From assembly GCA_001574975.1 (NCBI GenBank), contig KQ965739.1:97052-161051 (forward strand): DNA of 64,000 bases. The letters run 5' to 3'. Below are positions 838-39,400 of the stretch, in pieces. The notes below the pieces were generated by a model. That model was given only the letters and a program-made list of their open reading frames with translations, was not told the DNA's origin and did not search any database. Numbering within the stretch: the stretch's first letter is position 1; each line of letters begins with the position of its first letter. Both the position numbers and the translations under genes were made by a program. This DNA is from Gonapodya prolifera JEL478 (lineage: Eukaryota > Monoblepharomycota > Monoblepharidomycetes > Monoblepharidales > Gonapodyaceae).

Positions 838-2951
838 ATGTTTATCCAGGAAGAGGAAGAGGAAGAAAACCTCGAAGTCGAGGAGCCAGCGACATCGGGC
901 AGCGAATTTGGCTACGAACACGCCTCCTTTACTGTCCCAGTCGAAGTTGCGAGCCCATCAGGCGCCCTCCCGAGCACAGTGCAACAAGCTTTGACGAGCA
1001 TGTTGGCGAATGCCCTTCCTTTTGCCCAGAATGCCACAGTGGAGGAACTCGCTCAGCATATTGCGAGTGCCCAAGTCGCGCAAGCTGTTCAACAGGCTGC
1101 GCAACTCGTGCAACATATTGACGGAACGGGCTCTGGTGAGAAGACTTCACGTACATCACGCCCTTCGGTATCAGGTGGAAAGAATGCGAAAGCGGACAAA
1201 ATTAAAACTGTTGGTACCAGAACTGGTTTCGTAAGAGTCCCGTCTTAATCATTTTCGTTCTTCAAACTGCAGTGCGCGGAGTGCGGGAAGACTTTTGATC
1301 GAATGTGGAACTACAAGTCACATATGCTTGTGAGTGGAAGCCGCTCTAAAATCTGATGCCGCTTTCGGTCTGATTCGACGAAACGATTGATTGCCTTAAG
1401 ACTCATACGGGAGAAAAGAAATTTCCCTGCAATGTATGTCAGCTGCGTTTCGCCCGTGCATATGATTTGAAGCGACACTCGAGGTTTCACAATGAGGACA
1501 AGTAAGGGAATACTTTGGCGTACCGTACATTGTCGTAAAACCTTCTTGTGTCAAGACCGTACAAGTGCCCATGCGGTGAATCGTTTTATCGGTCAGACGC
1601 TTTGAAACGACACGAAAAGGCATGCCGTCCAACGACCAGGAAAGTGCAAGTGCCCCCTCCCCCACAGCAGGGCATTTTCGAAGATGAACTTGAGCTAGAG
1701 GACACTGCTCTCAACCCCGCGCCTGCCGCACCTCCTCCCGAAGAAACTGCTAAAGCATCCGAAGATCCTGTTCCTACGAGACGCATTGCCTCAACCGCGA
1801 GTGCAGCTCAAAGTTCTGCGGAAGGCCCTGTCGAAACAGAATCTCCTCTAACCGTCTCCCAACCGTCGGCACTTCCCGAACCACTCACTGGGGACGTTGG
1901 TGAATCGCTCGCTTCGAATGTTCCTCCCGGCCTGGCAACAGACGCTTCCTTTGCATCAAACTCAATTCTGAACGCTTTTGAGACGTACAGTCACTTGATA
2001 CCGGATCACGCGGCAGTCATGGCGGTAGCTGTGCCTTATATCGCACAAATGGCTCGGTCAGGAGGTCAATCCACCCAGGCTGCTGCCGCCGCAGCTGCAT
2101 ACGCTACCGCCTATGCCCATTTATTGCCGGCACAAGTTCATGTGAGACAAACTCTGCAAATCTTTGTCTTGTTCCATAAACACAGCCTAACTTGTTCCCC
2201 CGGGAAGGCGGCCGTTGCACAAGCTGCGTCTATTGCGCATGACATTATCGCACGCCAGGCTTCGGCTTCGGCGACAGGGTCTGCATTGCCATCTGCCAAC
2301 GTAGAACATCTCGCAAGAGGTGGTGAAAGTTCCGGAAACGTTGACGAAAATCCGTGGACTGCGTTTTATGGAGCGCTTGGAGATTACAACTACGAGGGCT
2401 TTGAAACCGCGGACTCTGCAGATGTTGACACCAAGGTTGCTGTGACAGAACACGACCAGCTTACTGAGGAGGGGTACGAGCAGTATTCAGGATTTGGTTT
2501 ATTTGATCAGTCGGGTAGCGCCGATGAACCAGAAGTAGCACAAACGGGTTATGATCAGGGAGATGAATATCAAGGGAACACAGAGCAATACGGAGACACT
2601 TCAACCGACATCCATGGTGTGGTGGGAGACCAGCTTGGAGATAACGACCAATCACAAATCGATGACCAATCTTCAATTCTGTGGGACGGTGCAGATGACT
2701 TCGGAGTAGACCCCTCTGCTGGCGGATCGGACTACGTCGTTTTTGAAGTAGGAGATTATGTCGACCCCGAAATAATGTTTACCGGATCTGCGCGTACCCT
2801 CCCCGCTGCGGTGATATCGGCACCCAGCATCTCGGAAAGGAGTCAGGATGTGCAGGGGACTCACGAAACGCCGCGGAAAAAACGGAAGCTTGACGTATCT
2901 TATGGGGAAGGTGCTTCTCGAAGGAGATCGCGATCCGGTGGCGAGGCTTGA
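838..2951 (+). CDS. C2H2 zinc-finger protein with a long acidic tail
   Basis: Five exons, 838-1230, 1273-1329, 1401-1501, 1556-2141 and 2208-2951, join in phase to about 626 residues. The ATG at 838 is preferred because the only earlier in-frame start is a TTG. Residues about 132-205 carry three tandem C2H2-type fingers: CAECGKTF...HMLTH, a linker THTGEKKFPC, then FPCNVC...HSRFH and YKCPCGESF...H. The third finger ends in HEKAC, so its last ligand is Cys. The second linker is shortened. Before the fingers there is an acidic stretch (six Glu) and an Ala/Gln-rich helix-prone segment. After them comes a long low-complexity tail rich in Asp, Gln and Ser, and a basic patch RKKRKL near the C-terminus that could be a nuclear localisation signal. 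The likely role is DNA-binding transcription regulation; targets are unknown. The last intron (2142-2207) is a multiple of three and has no stop, so its retention would still be coding. Confidence 0.75.
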
Positions 2952-3066
2952 GTACCACAATGCAAATATTGTATATAGAAACGTCGCCCCATACCCGAAG
3001 ATTGGTTCATTCACAAGAAGATCGACTACTGGACCTGAATGTATATCAAAATTTTATAACAAATGG

Positions 3067-4746
3067 TTAACTGCTATCGTCATCTGACTCCTGAGCAACG
3101 CCAGTCGTATCCAATCTTTCTTTCCGTCGTTTCTTCTTCTGCCTTTGCTTCTCCCTCTTTTTAGCATTCTTATCGTCTTCCCCACCGGCTGTAGTCGGGT
3201 TCTGTTGAGCGGCTGGTGGTGGGGCCGTTTCTGTCTCTTCCAGTTTGTTTTTCTTCTTTCGCCGTTTTGCGGCCTTTTGGTCTGCCGTCTGCGGAATTCC
3301 AGTTTCGACTTCACCTTCGTCGTCGTCGTCCCCACGTTCCTGTTCATACCGGACTCCACCAGCGTCATACTCGCTGCGATAAGCTTCATCTGGGTCCTGC
3401 TTCGCAAGGTCATCACTTTGACTCAAGGATTTGGAACCGCGTCCCACAGGAGGACGCTTCGGCGTTGCCAGTTTATAGTCCATTTGCGTCTTGCTGGGTG
3501 ATGTGGGTAAGGCGGGGGAGGCAAGGTTTACCGACCGGGCGATTGAGGCAGGGACTAGAAACCCAGACTTCAGTGCCGGGGCATTTGCAACGTCAATTCG
3601 CGAAGACCAGGTCGGTTGAAACAGGGTGCCTCGTAGCGTGAGCATGTCGTTTGCTGTCACGATGCTGGAGCGATAAAACAGTGGAATGGTTCAACTTCGT
3701 TGACACAAGGGGCTAACAGACCTCTCACCTGGAAACCCAACATCCAATAGCACAGCCCTCATCCATTTCGTCCCTTTTCGTTCCATCAGTCCCCTTGTCA
3801 ATCCAAACGCCTTTTGAGGTATCGTATACAAAGCGGTCCGGGATATTGTCCGCGGGAACGAACAGATTGAACACGCGATGAACGAGTAAAGAGATGTGAG
3901 TTGGGGACGACAAGGTCACTGTGCCAACTGGAAGAGGTTTGAGGGGTGGTGTTTAGTCAGAATAGAGCTTCTAAACCTTTGCGTGTTCGACTCACCGACG
4001 TAGTCTCTCACTTTCGGGTTCCACACGACGGCATCAGTTCGAACGAGAACGTGCGCATGTGGAGTGTCGTACAATACTTCCGCATCCTTCATCAGTGGCT
4101 CGGGTTCCGTATAGCTCAAAAGTACACCAGGAAGTTCAGGCAAGTACCTGGCAGTCGGGAGACCTTGAGGAACGCGAATAAAAATATCGCCAACTGAATC
4201 TCACTTCATCAAGTAGCGGGAGAGATAGTCGTCGATTCCACGCTCAAAGTCACCAATGAACTTTGCCGGTAAGTAAATCCTCCAGTCGATGGTGACACGA
4301 TTAAAGGTGCGGAGCAGTGATGTGTCCGTCGAGTTGGTAACGGATCTCAAGGAAGTAGAGCTCCCGAGCGTCTTCGGCTGCTCAAGAGGAGCACTCGTCG
4401 TTGCCTCAGATTTCCCGTGAGGGGCAGCGGAAATCTCTCGCTTGGGCTTCTCCTTCTTGATGCGTTTCGATGATTGCCCTAGGTCGTCGTTCTTCCCGCC
4501 CACCCCATTCCTGCTCTCGTCCAAGCTTTCAGGTTTCGCATTCACGCCACTTTCTGAATGTCGCTTTCTTTTCTTTTCTTCTTTACGGCGTTGCTTCTCT
4601 GCCTTCCGTTCCCCTTCGGTCATCGATGTTTCCTCGTGCCTCACTGTCCTCTCCTCTTCCAGCCCTGCCTCTCCCACGTTATCTTTGAACTCGTCCTTTC
4701 GTTTCTTCTTCTTAGCATCCGTGATGAGTGTTCCAGCGTCCGCCAT
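3067..4746 (-). CDS. RPA43: RNA polymerase I subunit A43 (Rpa43)
   Basis: Minus-strand exons 4746-4205, 4147-3996, 3927-3729 and 3664-3067 join in phase to 496 residues. The core (about residues 165-300) has the Rpb7-N-like and OB-fold pattern of A43: a segment with YLPELPGVLLSY, an acidic-to-hydrophobic strand ending VVWNPKVRDYV, then ISLLVHRVFNLFVP and a strand with KGVWID. In Pol I, A43 forms the stalk with A14 and is the docking point for the initiation factor Rrn3. The protein is longer than the yeast or human subunits (roughly 330 residues) because of Lys/Glu-rich disordered arms: an N-terminal arm of about 160 residues with many KKKRK patches, and a C-terminal tail rich in Lys and Asp. 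Both are expected of nucleolar proteins. Its 3' side faces the zinc-finger gene tail to tail. Confidence 0.8.
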
Positions 4747-18908: not shown

Positions 18909-20168
18909 TTAGCACCCTTCCACGCACCGCCCCGTCGCCGGGTCGTAGCATGGCCACACGCCAGGAAGCCTGCACAGGTGCCCGCAGTCAGACAGGATCA
19001 TGCTGTACCCGTCCCCCGCGCAGTACGTGCCCCCGCCCGCCGCGACGACGCCGCCTAGGAACCAGGGGCACTGGATGTGGCCGGTTCCGTCGAAGAGGGA
19101 GCATGAGGGAGCTATCGCTCCGCCACAGTGTCCCCCAGACCCGAAGGGGGGCTGGTGGCAACGGCCTGTGTCGATTCCGGTAGGTGGTGGAGGAGGCGGG
19201 CTGTTGAAATGGGAAGAGATGCTGACGTTAAGGTGATTGTTGAGGTATTTCTCTGTGAAGCAACACTTACGGTGGTGGTGGAGGCGGCGGGGGAGGGGNN
19301 NNNNNNNNNNNNNNNNNNNNNNNNNNNNNNNNNNNNNNNNNNNNNNNNNNNNGGGGGGGGAGGAGGCCTATGAAAGTGAGACAAGAATGTCAGTTTTCAC
19401 ATCTCCGCAGAATGCAACGCCCCTCCCTGCTCACTGTTGTTTTGGCGGTGCGGGCTGAACCGGAGGAGGAGGAGGCGGTGCCTTTGCTGCTGCATTTGCA
19501 GTGGGAATAGGAATGATGGCACCTTGTCCAACCACGTCGGCCGAGAATGTGGGATCTGCCGGCGCGTCAGGTGTTGGCACCGCTTGTGTTGTGTCGGGCG
19601 CGACGGTGGGTGAGTATTCGGCGGCTGGAGGGCTCACTGGGGGTGGGACCTGCGTGGGGTGGTTTGTGTGCGTGTTTGCCTGGGTGCTTTACGGCCGGTG
19701 CTCAATCCGGCGCACTCACCACAATGTTTGCTCCTGGAGCGAAAACGCATTGAGAATACATCGGGCTGTGCTCAACACAAGCCCAACCGCGTGAGCAACA
19801 CCCGGTTGGCCCACTGTAGCCCTCGCCGCCGCATTGGGCGTATTTCTGCGCACACGTTGTCTAGAGGAGGATTCACGAACAATTTTCAGCGTTGGTTGCT
19901 AGAATCTTGGTGCTAGATTCTGTCGGCGTTCGCGACGTACCTCTGCAGGATTGGACGGGACGCACTGGGAGTACCATTCGTTCTGCACGATGCACGCCGC
20001 TCCCCTCTGGCAGCACGTTTCTCCCACCCAGGAGATTCCGCCGCACTGGTCCCACCACGACTGGCACTCGGCGGCGGAAGCGCTGGGGAAGAGCGCGATA
20101 AGGAACAGGGACAGCAACGCGATGAGCGGCCACGCCGGCGCTCGGGATCGTATGTCTTGCGGATCCAT
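18909..20168 (-). CDS. secreted double-CBM1 protein with Pro-rich linker and Cys-rich tail
   Basis: Exons 20168-19941, 19860-19720, 19649-19435, 19367-19271 (containing the assembly gap) and 19200-18909. The start gives a signal peptide with core LIALLSLFLIALFP, cut near ASA-AECQ. Two fungal CBM1 cellulose-binding modules follow, one per exon: QSWWDQCGGISWVGE...WYSQC and KYAQCGGEGYSGPTGCC...MYSQC. They hold the usual Cys set and aromatic face. A Pro/Ala-rich linker (PPPVSPPAAEYSP and a run of Pro) leads to a C-terminal domain of about 80 residues with ten or so Cys (GGHCGGAIAPSCSLF, CPWFLGG, TYCAGDGYSMILSDCGHLC, CYDPATGRCVEGC). I do not recognise that last domain. No glycosidase domain is present, so a cellulose-binding accessory, adhesion or scaffold role is inferred. 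The gap falls inside the Pro codon run, so total length is unknown. Confidence 0.75.
19299..19352. other. assembly gap of 54 N
   Basis: Undetermined bases lie within the Pro-rich linker exon of the CBM1 gene, flanked by G/C homopolymer-like sequence. True length is unknown; the reading frame on both sides is consistent with a Pro repeat. Confidence 0.99.
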
Positions 20169-31234: not shown

Positions 31235-34200
31235 ATGCCCCACAAACCTACAACGTCGCCCGTGCTCCTACTCTTCCTGATCCTCTCCAACACTCTCTTC
31301 CTATCCGTCCTTGCCGCATCCAACTCAGCGCTCTACTGCGGCACAACGGTCGCAGGCTGGCTTGATATCCGCAGGACGATTTACGACCTCGTTCAAGCCG
31401 GGCATGGTGCGCGACTTTGTATGGGTGCACCCGTTCTCCCACCCTCCCATGAAACTCCCGCACTCTAACTCACAGGTCCACTCCTCGTCCGGCTCGCATG
31501 GCACGATGCAGGAACCTTCNCCTTCTTCCTGCCCGAACCATCTCAACCCCCCCCCCCCCGCCCAAACACCACCCGAACACTCTGGGGTACAACCACCGTA
31601 GACGGAAAAGGCGGGATGCACGCCATGATGAGGTTTTCGCCCGTGTCAGACTGGGGTGAGTGACACAGTCCCCTCATTTCAGAGAAACGGTTTTCCAACC
31701 ACTCCTCAGGTGCAAACAAGGGTCTCGACCTCGCCCGCGGTATGCTTTCGGACCTCTCCCGCACGTACCCCAACGTCAGCGGTAAGCTTTCAAACCAACT
31801 TTCACCAACCCATCCCCCACCTTCATCCAACACGCCCTCCCCCCGTTTAGTCTCCGACATCTGGGCACTCGCCGGCTCCGTCGCTGTCACGGGCACCGGC
31901 GGTCCCCTCCTTCCCTTCCGCTGCGGTCGTGTCGATTACGGTCCGGGTCAAGGCGTTCCTCCGCCCAGGCTGCCCGACGCGACGAGAGGGGAAGATCACC
32001 TCCGCGACGTTTTCATAACGAACATGGGATTCGACGAGTGGGAGCTTGTGGCGCTGAGCGGGGCGCATTCGTTGGGGAGAGGTGAGATAAAGCGAAAGTA
32101 GGGAGAGTCTGTCTGAGGGCAGAGGGCGTGGGCTGTGCTGGCGTTTGTGTCACCTTGACGTGCATGAACTCGTGAGATGTAACGGCGTTCGTCCATTTCG
32201 GCAGCTCATTCTGACCGCTCCGGCTTTGACGGACCATGGACGCGCCGCCCCAACACCTTTTCCAACTCCTACTTTGGCATCCTCACCGACACGCGGTGAG
32301 TTCTTTTCCTTCAGAACCGCATTCGATTCGACTGACAACGAACCTCGTGACTTAAAGCCCCTTTCGTCCTATTACGGCCCCAAACAACAACACTCAGTTT
32401 GTGTACAGCGACAGTCAACTCATGATGCTTCCGTCAGACATGGCATTGGTGGAGAGCAATGCGTTGAGGTACTATGTGTACAAGTGAGAATCTGCCCCGC
32501 AAATTCATCTTGCCTTAGTGGAACTTACTATGCGCCGTCAGATACGCCGCCAACTCGACGCTGTTTTTTGACGTGTTTGCGCGAGCGTGGGTCAAGCTCG
32601 TGGAACTTGGTGGGTCTCACCATTCTCACTCTCACGAGGAACCTCGCCACATCATGATCCATCCCCACCCGGTCCGTCAGGTTACCCACCAACATCCCTC
32701 ACTCTCTTACCCATCTCAACTGACCCGCTCGACACCTCTACGACCCCAGCTCTCTCCACCCTCTCCGATTTGTGGACGGTGGTGCCCCTGGGTCCCTCCA
32801 TGGCCCTCGGCTGGAAAGTCCGTGCAGAAGACGGCTGGGTGGACTTGAAGCTTGCCTGCAGGTGTGCTGGATGGTTTGCGTTGGGCTTTGGCGAGAGCAT
32901 GGCCGATTTGGATGTGATGGCGTATCCGGGTGGGGGTGGACCGAGCGGTCTAATGCTTGATATGTGAGCGCGTGCAGTAAGCAACACTGGATTTGGATTG
33001 TGCTTTACACGTGTCGGGTATCCAGGTACACAAGGGGGTACGCAGCGCCGATGGTCGATTCCGTACAAAGTCTATCGGACATTCATGACGCCAGTGTTGA
33101 ATTTCCGGGGTTCACAAGGGCCGTGGGATTCTCGAGACAGCTGGACACGGGGGACGTGAGGCATGATCACGTGTTGAGCGTTGTGGGGCCTTTACGGGTC
33201 CATTATGTTTGGTCTGAGTCGGATACGATTGTTTACCAGTGGGTGGCAAAGCGATTCCTTTTCTTCACTGCGCTTGTTCCATTATTGACCATGAAAAACG
33301 CCTTACCCTCCATGCCATGTACCCGTGCTTCTCGGCCCCACTTAGCGGGGAAAATGTCGACTCGACGACCCTCGACCTTACTTCTGGCACTGCTGCAGAG
33401 GACAATTCAAAGGTCCCGTCCCGGCTTGTTGCTGTTCTAAAGGGCTTCCATGGGATCGTGCTATTTGGGTCATTCTCCATTGTGGGGCCAGCAGCCATAG
33501 TGATCGTAAGGTACTCAAGCCGGTACCCAGACTACCTTATCTGGCACAGAGAGGTCATGTGAGTGAGATTGATCAATGATCAGGTGAAGGCGCTTCCAAC
33601 CTCCATGCTGACGATGTTGACGCGTTGCACCGTACAATCTCCAGGAGCATCCTTGTCACGGAATCATTCGTGGACATTATGCTTACAATGGTCATCAAGA
33701 TTGGGAAGGATGACTCAAACCCGCACGTTATTTTGGGCAAAGTTCTTCTCGCCGTCATGTTGCTCCAGGTTGTCTTGGGTTTTGTGGCATCCCCCTCCGC
33801 ACCAGAATACCTGTCCAAAATGGGTATTGTGGGTTCACTCATCAGACAGAACCTCATGCAGATGAGAGCCATGCACAGACTTGTGGGCTATGTGATGACT
33901 TTATTCATGATGGCAAACGCGTTTCTGTGAGTCGTTGGTGTCACCTTCCGTGCGCACTGGCATTGAATTCCACCAATCATGCAGGGGCATGTCCATTTAC
34001 ATGCGAGAATCCCCCAATTTGCTCGCCTTCCAGATCTCGTTCGTTGTCCTCGTTTTCTCTTGGGTCTTCATCCTAGTTGGTGTTCACGAGTGGCGCAATC
34101 TTCTCTCCAAAATCACCGGACGAGATTGGACCACCGTCAACCGCATTGGGGACGAGTTGGAAACAGGAAAGGATGATAATGCTGGTCTGATGTCCATCAG

Positions 34201-35904
34201 TTGGAAAGAATGTACGTTTCCTCCCTGTCGAGCGTAAGTATTTGACATTTTCTGATAAAATTTTTTTGGGTAGTCAACGACCGTACGGCGAAAGGAGCCA
34301 AACTTGTCATTATAGAAGGCATCGTGTACGATATCGGCGAATATGCAGTGTCACATCCCGGAGGAGCGGCGCCTCTCATGCAAACTGTTGGACTGGTACG
34401 TTTGTTTACGATAGCTTCCTTTATTTTCGATTCAAACGCTGTTCTATGCATGATTTAAAAAGGACATAACAAGTTTCTTCAACGGTGATAGTGTGGTGAC
34501 CGTAACAACGGCGAAGGGGAAGTCCAAGCCCGTTTCTCACGAACATTCAAGGGTCGCACATTTCCAACTGGTGAGGACTTTCAAAGGATGTTGACGTCTC
34601 TTTATTTCTCAGTGCAATTCGCGATCCTAAGCGCAAAATGAAAGTTGCAAAAATCGAACAAGGGACATATGGCCAGATTCTCAAGTCGGCTCTCATTGCT
34701 CTTGTACCCAACCGGTCGAGTTTAGAGTCACCTACTGGTGCAGCCCAGCTCCAAGAAACGGAGTTCGCTGCAGACTCGGTGCTGAGCTCCCATGTCTTTC
34801 GGTACTTCAAACTCGCCAAGAAAATGCCAGTTTCCGAAACGAAGGCGAGGAAGAAGGTCATTCTCTTCTCGTTCGAACTCAAGGATGCGAATGGAAACTT
34901 CCCGCAAAACCCAATAATTTTCAAACCGGGCGAACATTGTTCGATACAACTCGTCTCTGGGGTCGAGCTCATCACGCGGGCATACACACCCATTTCGATC
35001 CAATGCCAGAATAGCATTGAGTTTATGATCAAGTTACATCCGGAAGGGAAAATGTCGAAGCTCCTGCAGGCACTTGAAGTTGGCGACCAAGCTCGAATAA
35101 TGTCAAACCGCCAAGAAACTTGTCAAAGTGAGCATTACATTGAGGGACGGGGGGGGGTCCGTTCTCCGATTAACCAATCATTCATTTTATCTAGACCCCA
35201 TTGAACGAATGAGGAACCTTAATCATGAATCTCTTTGCTTCAGATCTGTTGGGATGATTTGCCAAGGGACTGGTCTTGTCCCGTTCATCAAAATCATAGA
35301 ATGGTATTCTCGATGTGGTTTGAGATTGCCGAAATCAAAGACCGGAGAAGGCGGAATGCCGCTTTTTACCTTGCGACTCCTTGATGTTGTGGAGACGGAC
35401 CACGACATGTACGATGATCCGGCTTGGAATCCATTGCGCGAATACGTGGTCTCACGACATCATTTTTACAGATTCGCCCGCAATCACATCGACGCTTTAC
35501 AAGCTGACCTAAAAGGTGCTTTAAGAGTTACCACGCTCGCCATTGCGCCGTCTCCAGAGGTTCGTATTTGCACCCCTGTTGCCAAAATGACCAACCCTGA
35601 TGTTTTGTCACTGAAAAACCAGTGGACCGGTCTACGTGGTAATCTGACGGAGGAAGTTCTCGCCGGGGCAATCGAACCGCCGGAACAAGCTGCACCTAAG
35701 CCTCTTTCCCGGCGAAACTCTTACATGCACCACAATTCCCAGGTCTCGCTTCCCGGTGTTTCCGGAAACTCGATAAAAATGCAACAACCACAACTTGAAG
35801 GATCCAGAATATTTGTATGTGGCACCAAGCGATTCAAGAGCATGGTCACCGAAATGCTGCTTACTCTTGGTTATATGGAGTCGGTTATTGTTGAACTCGC
35901 ATGA
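31235..35904 (+). CDS. peroxidase-DOMON-cytochrome b561-cytochrome b5-FAD/NAD reductase fusion
   Basis: Sixteen exons (31235-31406, 31476-31655, 31710-31781, 31851-32081, 32205-32295, 32358-32483, 32542-32609, 32750-32963, 33026-33238, 33346-33558, 33645-33926, 33985-34211, 34274-34395, 34463-34570, 34632-35127, 35195-35904) join with every phase consistent to 1174 residues. Order: signal peptide; class I-like heme peroxidase (58-313) with distal [26 protein letters not shown] and proximal [17 protein letters not shown] (about 314-455) with a Met and a HDH as possible heme ligands; b561 (about 480-665) with four His in GFHG, IWHRE, AMHR and GVHEW and five or six hydrophobic spans; cytochrome b5 (about 697-772) with HPGG and HEHS; FNR-type reductase (about 790-1174) with FAD and NAD motifs ([18 protein letters not shown]). 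Inferred role: electrons from cytosolic NAD(P)H cross the membrane through hemes to an outward peroxidase. Weakest points: the acceptor at 34632, and a C run holding one N at 31520. Confidence 0.8.
31520..31520. other. single undetermined base in a coding exon
   Basis: One N lies in exon 2 of the peroxidase fusion, about 27 bases before a run of 13 C. The frame is intact as given, but an indel in the C run would shift it, so this is the place to doubt in that gene. Confidence 0.95.
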
Positions 35905-36414: not shown

Positions 36415-39400
36415 CTAATAAGTGTCCTCGATGAAAGCTCCCGCTTTCTTTGCCGTCTTTGTCCAGCTTTTGACACCAAGCTCCGCTTTCGCCAAAGCAT
36501 CGCATGCTTCCGACACTGCTACACCCATCGTGCGCGCCCCACACACGAAAACGGCTCCACCCAGAAGAACTCCTTTCATGCCATCGACGTCCTCCTTGAC
36601 AACGTCCTGCACGCGGCAATTGCTGCGGTAAATTATTGTACGAGCCTTAACTCCACTTGGTGGTGGCGCAGTTTCGCGCGACAATGCGACAACGCATTTG
36701 GATAGGATTCCATCACGTAAGGCTTGCTCGATTTCGTGACGGTAAAGGAACTCTTTGATGGACCGACATCCAAAGTACAAAATCAGTGGTGCATCCAACG
36801 CCTCACTGATTCCATCAGTCTTTCGCGAATCCCGAATCTGCTCAATGAAAGCGCGGAAGGGCGCGATACCGGTGCCGTTCGCGACCATTGCTGTGGGTTT
36901 GGCCAGAGGCGTCTGAAGGTGAAACCGTGGACACTGACGCACCATGAATCGCAGCGTCGACGAGACTGGCATCTGTATAAGATATTCGGAGCAGAGCCCG
37001 AATGCTGCGGTGCCGTCGGGTCGCGAGAAATGGTGCCGAGACACCGTCAGTGCAGCACCCCCGGTAGAAGCGCTCGCGATGGAGTAGTACCGAGGTTGCA
37101 ACGTAGGTGCGTAGGAGAGAAAATCTGTGAGGGCTGGACGCTTCGAATTCTTGGATCCAATCACGGACTTGAACAGGCGGAAAACGTCGAGGGTTGACAA
37201 CGCGCTGGTACCAGTCTTGGTGTCAGATTGGCTTAGAAGTCTATCGAGTTTTGCGGCATCAGATTTGCTTCCGCTCGATTCAGCAACGTCCCGCATAAAG
37301 AAAAGTAAGTTCGTGGGACACGGTCCCATCAGGTCCACGGTACTGTGAAGCAATTTATGGTGCGAGGGATCCGCTGTCCCGAACAACGTCATCGCCTCAT
37401 CAACGATAAAAGCGGGATTCAAGGGCGTGATCGCCAAATGATCTCCTGGGTTGTAGCGGAGGTCATCAGCGGCAAGCTCAATGTGCCATGTGCCTCGGAC
37501 CCCGTCTTTGAAGAGGGTGGTGGATTTCGTGATGGTGGCGTCGATCCAATCGTTCGATGGCGATGCCAACGTATTAGGTGCCGATTTGGAATCGATAATT
37601 GTGGTGAGGCGTTTGTTGGATAATCCAATGGAATCAAAGACGTTCTGCTGCCATTGCTGGAAGGCGCCTTCTCTGTCTTCAAGCTCATCGCCAGCCCCAA
37701 TCGGACCGAGTCGAGTTGCTCCAAGCACCATTAATGTTGATGATAAAGTGTTCGCTGCTCCGTTAAACGTCCTAGGATAAGCTGTGTGCGGAAATGTAAG
37801 CGGGGAGCTGGCAGACAGGCATCATATTCAATACAGGTATCCTCACCTGAGCTGCACAATCCGAACACCGCGAACGACAAATGACTCAAGGAACCATTTG
37901 CGCTGGTCGCCAGTTGCTGAATCGACTTCGCAGCTTCAGTAGGGAGCTCCCCGTCTCCAAAAGTGCTGAGGAACACAAAAATAATGCGCTTTTGCTTCAG
38001 ATGTGACAACAACGGTTGCTGCAGGCTTTCGATGAGGCAAGGTGTGATGTTCACTCCCTGCTTCCTCAAGTTGACGGAAAACCTATTCGCCAGTTGCTCG
38101 GCGGTGCCGGTTTCTGTGCCGACCAGAATCGAAGCGTTTTCGAGGAGCGCCGAGTCTACCACACTGCTTTCAGATTGGTGTGATGACGTAAGGGTTGATT
38201 GGGTGGAGCCTCGAGTCGATTTGTCGTCGATTGCGGTGGTGCTGCTATCCGTCGTGATGTTTCCGGAAATGTTGACTATCGACCTGGCAGATGCCAGCAG
38301 GTGGTCGTCGTCGGTTTCCCGAGACAGTGACGGGTCTGCTGCGCGTGTTGCACCACCTTTGGATTTCTCCCGACGAGCGCCCTTTGCATTCCCCGACTTC
38401 CAACTCGGTTCTCTAAAGCCCATAAACGCCGGTTTCAATGCCATTTTCACCATCTCTTGGTGAAACACACTTGTTGCCGACCCCGAAATGGGTGGCGTCA
38501 GCCACACCCAGTCACCAGTGAAATACCCTCGGCTGCTCATTTCGCGATTTGCAAAGTTGATGAACGAGTCCGATGCCGTATGGTGGTCCACGACCGAAAC
38601 GCCGAGTTTATCAAACGACGATAGCACCGCGGCGTTTAGTTCCACAAACGCGCGGTCCTTCCACAGCGAGCGCTTGTTGCTCTGCGCGTGACTGTCGTAG
38701 CCCATGAGATGCCCGATGAGCGGGAGGAGGTTGTACCGTTGCACGTCCCCGAGATTGCGCGACCCGATCTCGGCGCTCATGTACCATCCGTTGAAGGGGC
38801 ACGCAGAGTACGTCACCCCGCCGATGGAGAGGGCGAACGAGCTGATGGCGGGGACGGCGTGCCATTTGATTTTGTAGGATTCGAGTTCCGGGTAGTCGGG
38901 GTGGGTAATTGGCACTTCGAGAATGGAGTCCGGAGAAAACTCGGACCAGGCAACGTGGCCGCTCGCGTCCTTTTTTGCGGGGAGGAAGGAATGGGAATGT
39001 GAAAAGAAGCACAATGCAGAGCACCGCAACGTTTTACGTACCTCTGCAACAATCGGTAGCATGTCAAACCACCCAGCAACACCGCCCTGAGGCCGCCATC
39101 CCATCTCTAAGCAGACGCGGGTGAATTCGACATGTGCCGGGTCGCCGAGAATGTCGCTGAACGCGTCGCCTTCGGGTCGGACCAATTCGCGAGCAGCTTC
39201 GAGCCCCTCCTCCCGGTCGACGTGCAGCCCGTACTTTGCCAGGTCGCTTCGAGCGTATCCGGCGTAGCGAAGGAGCTGAGGGTTCCAGATTCGAGGACCG
39301 CGTTTCCCGTTCTTGCGTTGCGGGAAGATGGTGATGGTGGATTTAATGGTGCCACCGTTCGTGGCTGAAGCGAAAGGAGAAGCAGAAGCAGAATGGTGTG

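Follow-up and report, generated by a model that had tools for sequence, protein, structure and literature searches.

The stretch examined here (the window) comprises 64,000 nucleotides of the genome of the fungus Gonapodya prolifera JEL478, which totals 47.6 Mb, and lies in contig KQ965739.1 (C9 below) at positions 97,052 to 161,051. Positions 31235-35904 of its forward strand (+), on which all window features described below lie unless stated otherwise, harbor a gene whose spliced translation is a single chain of 1155 residues with a frame that is open throughout. The domain order is a signal peptide, a class I-type heme peroxidase, a DOMON domain, a five-helix b561-like core, a cytochrome b5, a FAD-binding domain and a NAD-binding domain. 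An earlier note, made from the sequence of the window alone, had placed the peroxidase, DOMON, b5 and FAD/NAD modules in one chain, and both the Pfam scores, which lie above cut-off, and the continuous spliced frame bear this out. The five-part gene (peroxidase, DOMON, b561, b5, FAD/NAD) is confirmed as real, and its domain order is well supported.

A search of the same genome with the window protein yielded four further loci with the same domain order: L051 (contig C4), L050 (C2), L052 (C6) and L053 (C120), with full-length identities to the window protein of 46, 32, 31 and 28%, respectively. A sixth gene, L054 (contig C1), encodes the same chain from DOMON on without a peroxidase, and a peroxidase-family search of the genome (18 matches) placed none on contig C1. 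When further members were sought with the DOMON-to-NAD part of L050, none appeared at E 0.01 among the candidates scored. The paralogs were modelled by a custom spliced aligner, which recovered the window exons from the window protein; the L053 model reaches only the start of the NAD domain, the L054 model ends within that domain, and the L052 model is unsure on the proximal side of the peroxidase, where it had to be pieced together from tiny exons of 17, 12, and 24 bases. Modelled exon numbers differ widely (23 in L051, 18 in the window gene and 11 in L050), reflecting large intron gain or loss within the family.

The joining of the parts is most clearly seen in these paralogs. In L050, L051, L052, and L053 a single exon with no in-frame stop holds both the last part of the peroxidase and the first part of DOMON (2566-3315, 2350-2629, and 2614-3050 in reverse-complement coordinates for L050, L051, and L052, and 2677-2981 for L053), whereas the two other frames of these four exons contain 1 to 11 stops each. 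Because four paralogs join peroxidase and DOMON in this way, the fusion is not an artefact of the gene model; relatives in which the two parts are always separate genes, named in the earlier note as the finding that would speak against a fusion, were thus not what the genome contained. The subsequent joins are likewise found inside single stop-free exons: DOMON-b561 in L054 (2150-2826), L050, L052, and L053, b561-b5 in L050 (4093-4599), and b5-FAD in L051 (4414-5081, with only the second half of b5 covered).

The exon map of the window gene was obtained by aligning the window DNA to the L050, L051, and L052 proteins. The three guides give an identical set of 18 exons over the shared part, save one acceptor with L052, and all 17 introns are GT-AG. 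The sixteen exons counted previously do not hold, since each guide splits the former last exon, and the 16-exon model (1197 residues) was dropped in favor of the paralog-guided alignment. The two added introns, formerly read as coding, lie at 35409-35471 and at 35560-35622, the latter at a place where L051 also has an intron. Together they take out 42 residues, and once they are removed NAD_binding_1 scores 25.3 bits (cut-off 22), whereas the 16-exon protein gives no match to this domain at E 0.001. The last exon (35623-35904) carries a C-terminal CG motif (Cys1128) and the stop. The peroxidase and DOMON exons are separated, as previously proposed, by a single GT-AG intron that starts at 32610; it ends at 32680 (71 bases, acceptor backed by L051) and not at 32749. 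The latter acceptor is in frame but is ruled out by the alignment, as the residues that it would drop align with an uninterrupted L051 exon (YQSTDLTPLPVITDP).

One stretch within the peroxidase exons is less certain. At 31520-31601 a single N is followed by an insert of 24 residues that includes a run of C, lies beside the distal helix and is without counterpart in the four five-part paralogs. An intron of L051 sits at the same place and in the same phase, and the insert could be an unrecognised intron ending at GTAG; a canonical donor was looked for at the insert and none was seen. Two readings thus remain for the stretch: an intron that went unrecognised because the sequence is poorly read there, or an insert that is genuine. 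The window contains only one other stretch of N, a run of 54 at 19299-19352.

The signal peptide spans residues 1 to about 28 (31235-31318). Its hydrophobic stretch (residues 10-28, mean hydropathy 2.46), in agreement with the signal peptide first proposed from the sequence, was computed in the window gene, and the paralogs, judged by eye, also have a hydrophobic N-terminal signal. The peroxidase follows in exons 1-7 (31397-32554; Pfam residues 55-295, PF00141, 122.6 bits, cut-off 27). Among the best 60 of 184 sequence matches to solved structures, ascorbate peroxidases rank first (E 2.3e-47), followed by cytochrome c peroxidase. The RLAWH and SGAH motifs, like HPGG and HEHS of the b5 domain, were found where the earlier note had put them. 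By paralog alignment they supply the distal Arg63, Trp66, and His67 (codons within 31490-31504) and the proximal His214 (32066-32068). Arg223 and the proximal Trp230 are encoded within 32216-32239, the former at the position of the ascorbate-binding Arg of ascorbate peroxidase (APX). Asp276 (32437-32439), the partner of the proximal His, is invariant in all five fused peroxidases.

The catalytic set (distal Arg-Trp-His and proximal His-Asp-Trp) is complete in the window gene and L051, which also both have Arg at the ascorbate site, and altered in the other three fused genes. Across the five, the distal Arg is present in all, the distal Trp and His in three each, the proximal Trp in four and Arg at the ascorbate site in three, L052 being unsure there. 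The proximal His-Asp-Trp set is present in the window gene, L051, L050, and, as modelled, L052 (where Trp falls in the unsure short exons), and is not present in L053. A peroxidase tree of 25 rows (the five fused domains, three other peroxidases of the genome, and 17 of 37 database matches, with no Hybrid B row) places the five fused domains on one side of a branch (support 74/96) and the 20 others on the other, the latter including the genome's own KatG-like protein and two of its single-domain peroxidases; the deeper order is poorly supported. A single fusion followed by duplication would be the simplest reading, with moderate support and with the other peroxidase matches of the genome lying outside the tree.

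Downstream of the peroxidase, every domain of the window protein except b561 also exceeds its Pfam cut-off. DOMON is encoded by exons 8-9 (32681-33238; Pfam residues 355-467 at 32803-33203, PF03351, 34.6 bits, cut-off 32.7), and its predicted heme ligands, Met387 (32899-32901) and His479 (33237-33346, the codon being split by intron 33239-33345), are invariant in all six genes. The b561-like core (33413-34078) is assigned from hydropathy and the pattern of His514, His546, His577, and His627, with weak Pfam support. The cytochrome b5 domain (34187-34570; PF00173, 38.8 bits, cut-off 23.7) contains His747 (HPGG) and His788 (HS), a pair that is invariant in the five five-part proteins and present in L054 too. 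The FAD-binding domain with its RAYTPIS motif (34848-35099; PF00970, FAD_binding_6, 41.2 bits, cut-off 21.1) is above cut-off in all six proteins, each of which has RxYTP. The NAD-binding domain (PF00175) extends over two introns (35254-35676) and exceeds its cut-off only in the window protein, the C-termini of L053 and L054 being incompletely modelled.

The membrane part of the chain was further defined by an alignment of the DOMON-b561 region (A1, six sequences, 432 columns) with 29 invariant columns. Five of these columns are His and one is Met, and every one of the six is a predicted ligand of the three hemes of DOMON and b561. Of the four b561 His, the first and third sit at the outer ends of helices 1 and 3, and the second and fourth at the inner ends of helices 2 and 4; the spacing of the first and second is 32 or 33 residues in all six proteins. 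The b561 with four His that had been proposed from the sequence has five helices, and its His are invariant in six genes, but its Pfam score stays below cut-off. The loops after helices 1, 3, and 5 are richer in Lys and Arg than those after helices 2 and 4 (8 against 2 in the window protein, 10 against 1 in L051, with rough helix ends), a bias that puts b5 and the reductase on the cytosolic side. The domain order, the covalent joining of the modules, the conservation of the ligand residues, and a topology that fits an odd helix count are direct results of the computation.

The individual modules resemble several known systems. CYBDOM proteins, which combine DOMON and cytochrome b561 (Arabidopsis CRR, FRRS1/SDR2, and insect CG8399), are described as having a signal peptide, a DOMON on the outer side that carries Met and His, and five helices, the first four of which contain four His (PMC10784552, PMC10691727); the window family has these features too. 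For CRR, a five-helix core, a DOMON with Met and His, and b561 His paired 1-3/2-4 are described (PMC10784552), and the His positions of the window family match this pairing; the core described in helices 1-4 of the insect CG8399 proteins also agrees (PMC10691727). Unlike CYBDOM proteins, the window family adds a C-terminal b5 and FAD/NAD module and, in five of six genes, an N-terminal peroxidase. Characterised b561 proteins are described as drawing electrons from ascorbate (PMC10784552), and the fused FAD/NAD module suggests a donor other than the cytosolic ascorbate of the CYBDOM type.

Among peroxidases, the class I enzymes (ascorbate peroxidase, cytochrome c peroxidase, and hybrid A) share with the window gene the distal Arg-Trp-His and proximal His-Asp-Trp residues. 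In contrast to them, the window gene has a signal peptide and a membrane tether, and its donor would be the fused heme chain rather than ascorbate or cytochrome c. Non-secretion is a usual and not a defining trait of class I peroxidases, as secreted exceptions have been reported (PMC4232752). The fungal Hybrid B heme peroxidases are similar to the window family in being secreted fungal peroxidases with a C-terminal fusion, and the Arg-x-x-Tyr-His distal variant of L052 is also reported from these enzymes (PMC4232752). Their fusion partner is described as a sugar-binding WSC or CBM domain (PMC5571214), and a Pfam scan of the six proteins at E 0.05 revealed no WSC or sugar-binding domain. Hybrid B enzymes have class III proximal residues and have lost the base at the ascorbate site, whereas the window gene has the proximal Trp and Arg.

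Two further systems are alike in general plan. DUOX is reported to consist of an outer peroxidase-like domain, a membrane reductase core, and an inner FAD/NADPH module (PMC3591440). It differs from the window family in that all three modules belong to other families and in that it makes reactive oxygen species instead of spending reductant on H2O2; the same Pfam scan of the six proteins showed no NOX-type ferric reductase core, EF hands, or animal peroxidase domain. The DOMON-bearing FRE proteins of Naegleria and oomycetes likewise carry an outer DOMON on a membrane reductase with a FAD/NAD module (PMC3591440). Their core is a ferric reductase domain, and the published description, as far as available here, does not mention b5 or peroxidase (PMC3591440).

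In the protein database, none of 7989 candidates matched the full-length window protein as a single query at E 0.001, and none of 7999 matched its region 340-800 at E 10. These negatives are weak because the two queries found not even a distant relative. A five-sequence alignment gave 37 matches among 8000 scored at E 0.01, all with PF00141; their precomputed Pfam lists contain no PF03351, PF00173, or PF00970, and the five-part order is absent from the eight of the 37 that were scanned for domains. Two candidates were rejected: P0037 (Nicotiana), in which DUF568 and a class III-like peroxidase stand in the reverse order, probably through the merging of two gene models, and P0003 (Phlyctochytrium), a tandem peroxidase. 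A literature search, mostly at the level of titles and abstracts and with thin coverage of subscription journals, found no description of the five-part architecture, and the known systems compared above, as they are described there, do not have this order either. Within the limited sensitivity of these searches, the suggestion that no protein with this order had been described thus stands: the modules are known, and the combination appears to be new.

The most likely reading of these features, to which we give about an even chance, is a single-chain transmembrane heme peroxidase driven by NAD(P)H, in which electrons would reach the peroxidase heme. Here we infer heme loading, each electron step and its direction, and a use in external peroxide removal. 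The peroxidase and DOMON would be located outside the plasma membrane or in the lumen of the secretory pathway, b5 and the FAD/NAD reductase would be cytosolic, and the five helices between them would hold two b hemes. Electrons from NAD(P)H would enter at the cytosolic NAD/FAD module and pass to the b5 heme, from there to the inner b561 heme (His546 and His627) and the outer b561 heme (His514 and His577), and then through the DOMON heme (Met387 and His479) to the peroxidase heme. Once H2O2 has been reduced, these electrons would regenerate the ferric peroxidase from compounds I and II, the tethered DOMON standing in for the cytochrome c or ascorbate of soluble class I peroxidases. With such cofactors the line should be downhill overall, given the very strong oxidising power of compounds I and II. 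The likely service would be external peroxide removal, or keeping the peroxidase turning over when no soluble donor is supplied. Because paralogs that do not have peroxidase chemistry keep the rest of the chain, the electrons may also go to a different acceptor, ferric iron for example.

Several observations weigh against an NAD(P)H-driven peroxidase. In L050 the distal His is replaced by Val, in L052 the distal Trp by Tyr, L053 has neither the distal Trp-His pair nor the proximal His, and L054 is without the peroxidase altogether, and in each of them the rest of the chain is kept. L050 and L053 retain the DOMON, b561, and b5 ligands without the distal His, so there the electron line has been kept without ordinary peroxidase chemistry. 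As to the other modules, DOMON exceeds its Pfam cut-off in only four of the six proteins (not in L051 and L053), and a DOMON search of the genome listed L050, L052, and L054 and not the window gene, L051, or L053. With a threshold of E 10, the Pfam b561 profile matches five of the six (the lowest E being 0.0012), with scores (16.9 bits in L050 and 9.5 bits in the window protein) below the cut-off of 23, and a genome search with this profile listed three other places and none of the six genes. When A1 served as a profile against solved structures, none of the 20 sequences found at E 1 was a b561; they comprised a weak match to nitrite oxidoreductase subunit C (E 0.0092), 18 bestrophins, and one calcium channel. 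The b561 assignment depends on the His pattern and the helices more than on profile score. The self-contained transmembrane electron line put forward in the earlier note is partly supported: its fusion, fitting topology, and electron-carrier ligands are borne out, the arrival of electrons at the peroxidase heme is a prediction, and the fate of the peroxidase residues in the paralogs speaks against a simple reading.

The main rival is a transmembrane NAD(P)H reductase for another outside acceptor (ferric iron, quinone, or a monodehydroascorbate-like radical), in which the peroxidase would be accessory or sensing, with substrates of its own, or non-catalytic. This is a possible but rather unlikely alternative: the chain without a peroxidase in L054 and the loss of catalytic residues in L050 and L053 fit it well, as does the ferric chelate reduction reported for the CYBDOM protein CRR (PMC10784552), but the window gene and L051 retain every catalytic residue checked and the fusion has been retained in five genes. 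A machine similar to the dual oxidases, whose general plan of outside peroxidase-like domain, membrane reductase core, and FAD/NADPH module is the same (PMC3591440), would instead turn outside oxygen into superoxide and H2O2, which the peroxidase would then use to oxidise cell-wall or host substrates. The Pfam scan of the six proteins at E 0.05 showed neither EF hands nor a NOX-type core, and their membrane and DOMON hemes are predicted to be six-coordinate. Six-coordination disfavours oxygen binding, although NOX hemes nonetheless reduce O2 in the outer sphere, and a machine of this kind seems improbable.

Two other possibilities concern the gene itself. The window copy could be a decaying gene whose peroxidase is broken by the N-containing insert, which is unique among the five genes and lies beside the distal helix. 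A copy of window positions 34527-35235, 92.3% identical and with introns included, occurs at 4516-5220 of L055 (contig C145), where no other window match is found; it is a partial duplication, at the DNA level, of the b5-FAD part. Over one exon it has 12 synonymous and 11 non-synonymous changed codons, which is uninformative for the window gene. Such a partial duplicate would suit a decaying locus, but the open frame, the 17 GT-AG introns, the intact ligands, and the identity to L051 over the full length make decay very improbable. The false merging of neighbouring genes into one model is scarcely credible: the 16-exon version of the model did keep two introns as coding, yet four paralogs contradict a merger by their single stop-free join exons, and the window intron of 71 bases gives little room for a terminator and a promoter.

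A few features stand beside the family. Other DOMON matches of the genome, on contigs C11, C88, C5, C72, and C121, do not adjoin listed peroxidase matches. On the reverse strand (-) of the window, 36418-37821 contains an open frame of 468 residues with FAD_binding_1 and NAD_binding_1 domains, of the diflavin-reductase type, which is convergent with the peroxidase gene and about 0.5 kb downstream of it. The genome also contains nine exon-level matches to chitin synthase and eight matches to radial-spoke proteins, six of them at one place on contig C3, and these point to a flagellated, zoosporic fungus.

The window gene may therefore represent a new type of enzyme, a proposal that we make tentatively and that falls a little short of an even chance: a peroxidase that is fed across the membrane by covalently attached carriers of its own (the path being NAD(P)H, FAD, four b hemes, and the peroxidase heme) and would spend cytosolic reductant on outside H2O2 without a diffusible donor. 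It would have been duplicated into a family of five genes, some members shedding peroxidase chemistry and perhaps becoming peroxide-independent reductases or sensors. A diffusible donor is the normal need of heme peroxidases, and hard-wiring to NAD(P)H would let a single gene export reducing power to counter peroxide outside the cell. A ready comparison set for the role of each module would be at hand in the paralogs that have no peroxidase or an altered catalytic set. If the proposal is true, the protein would be a natural five-heme wire and, being assembled from unrelated parts, a convergent counterpart of DUOX, and it would bear on how early fungi meet oxidative defence.

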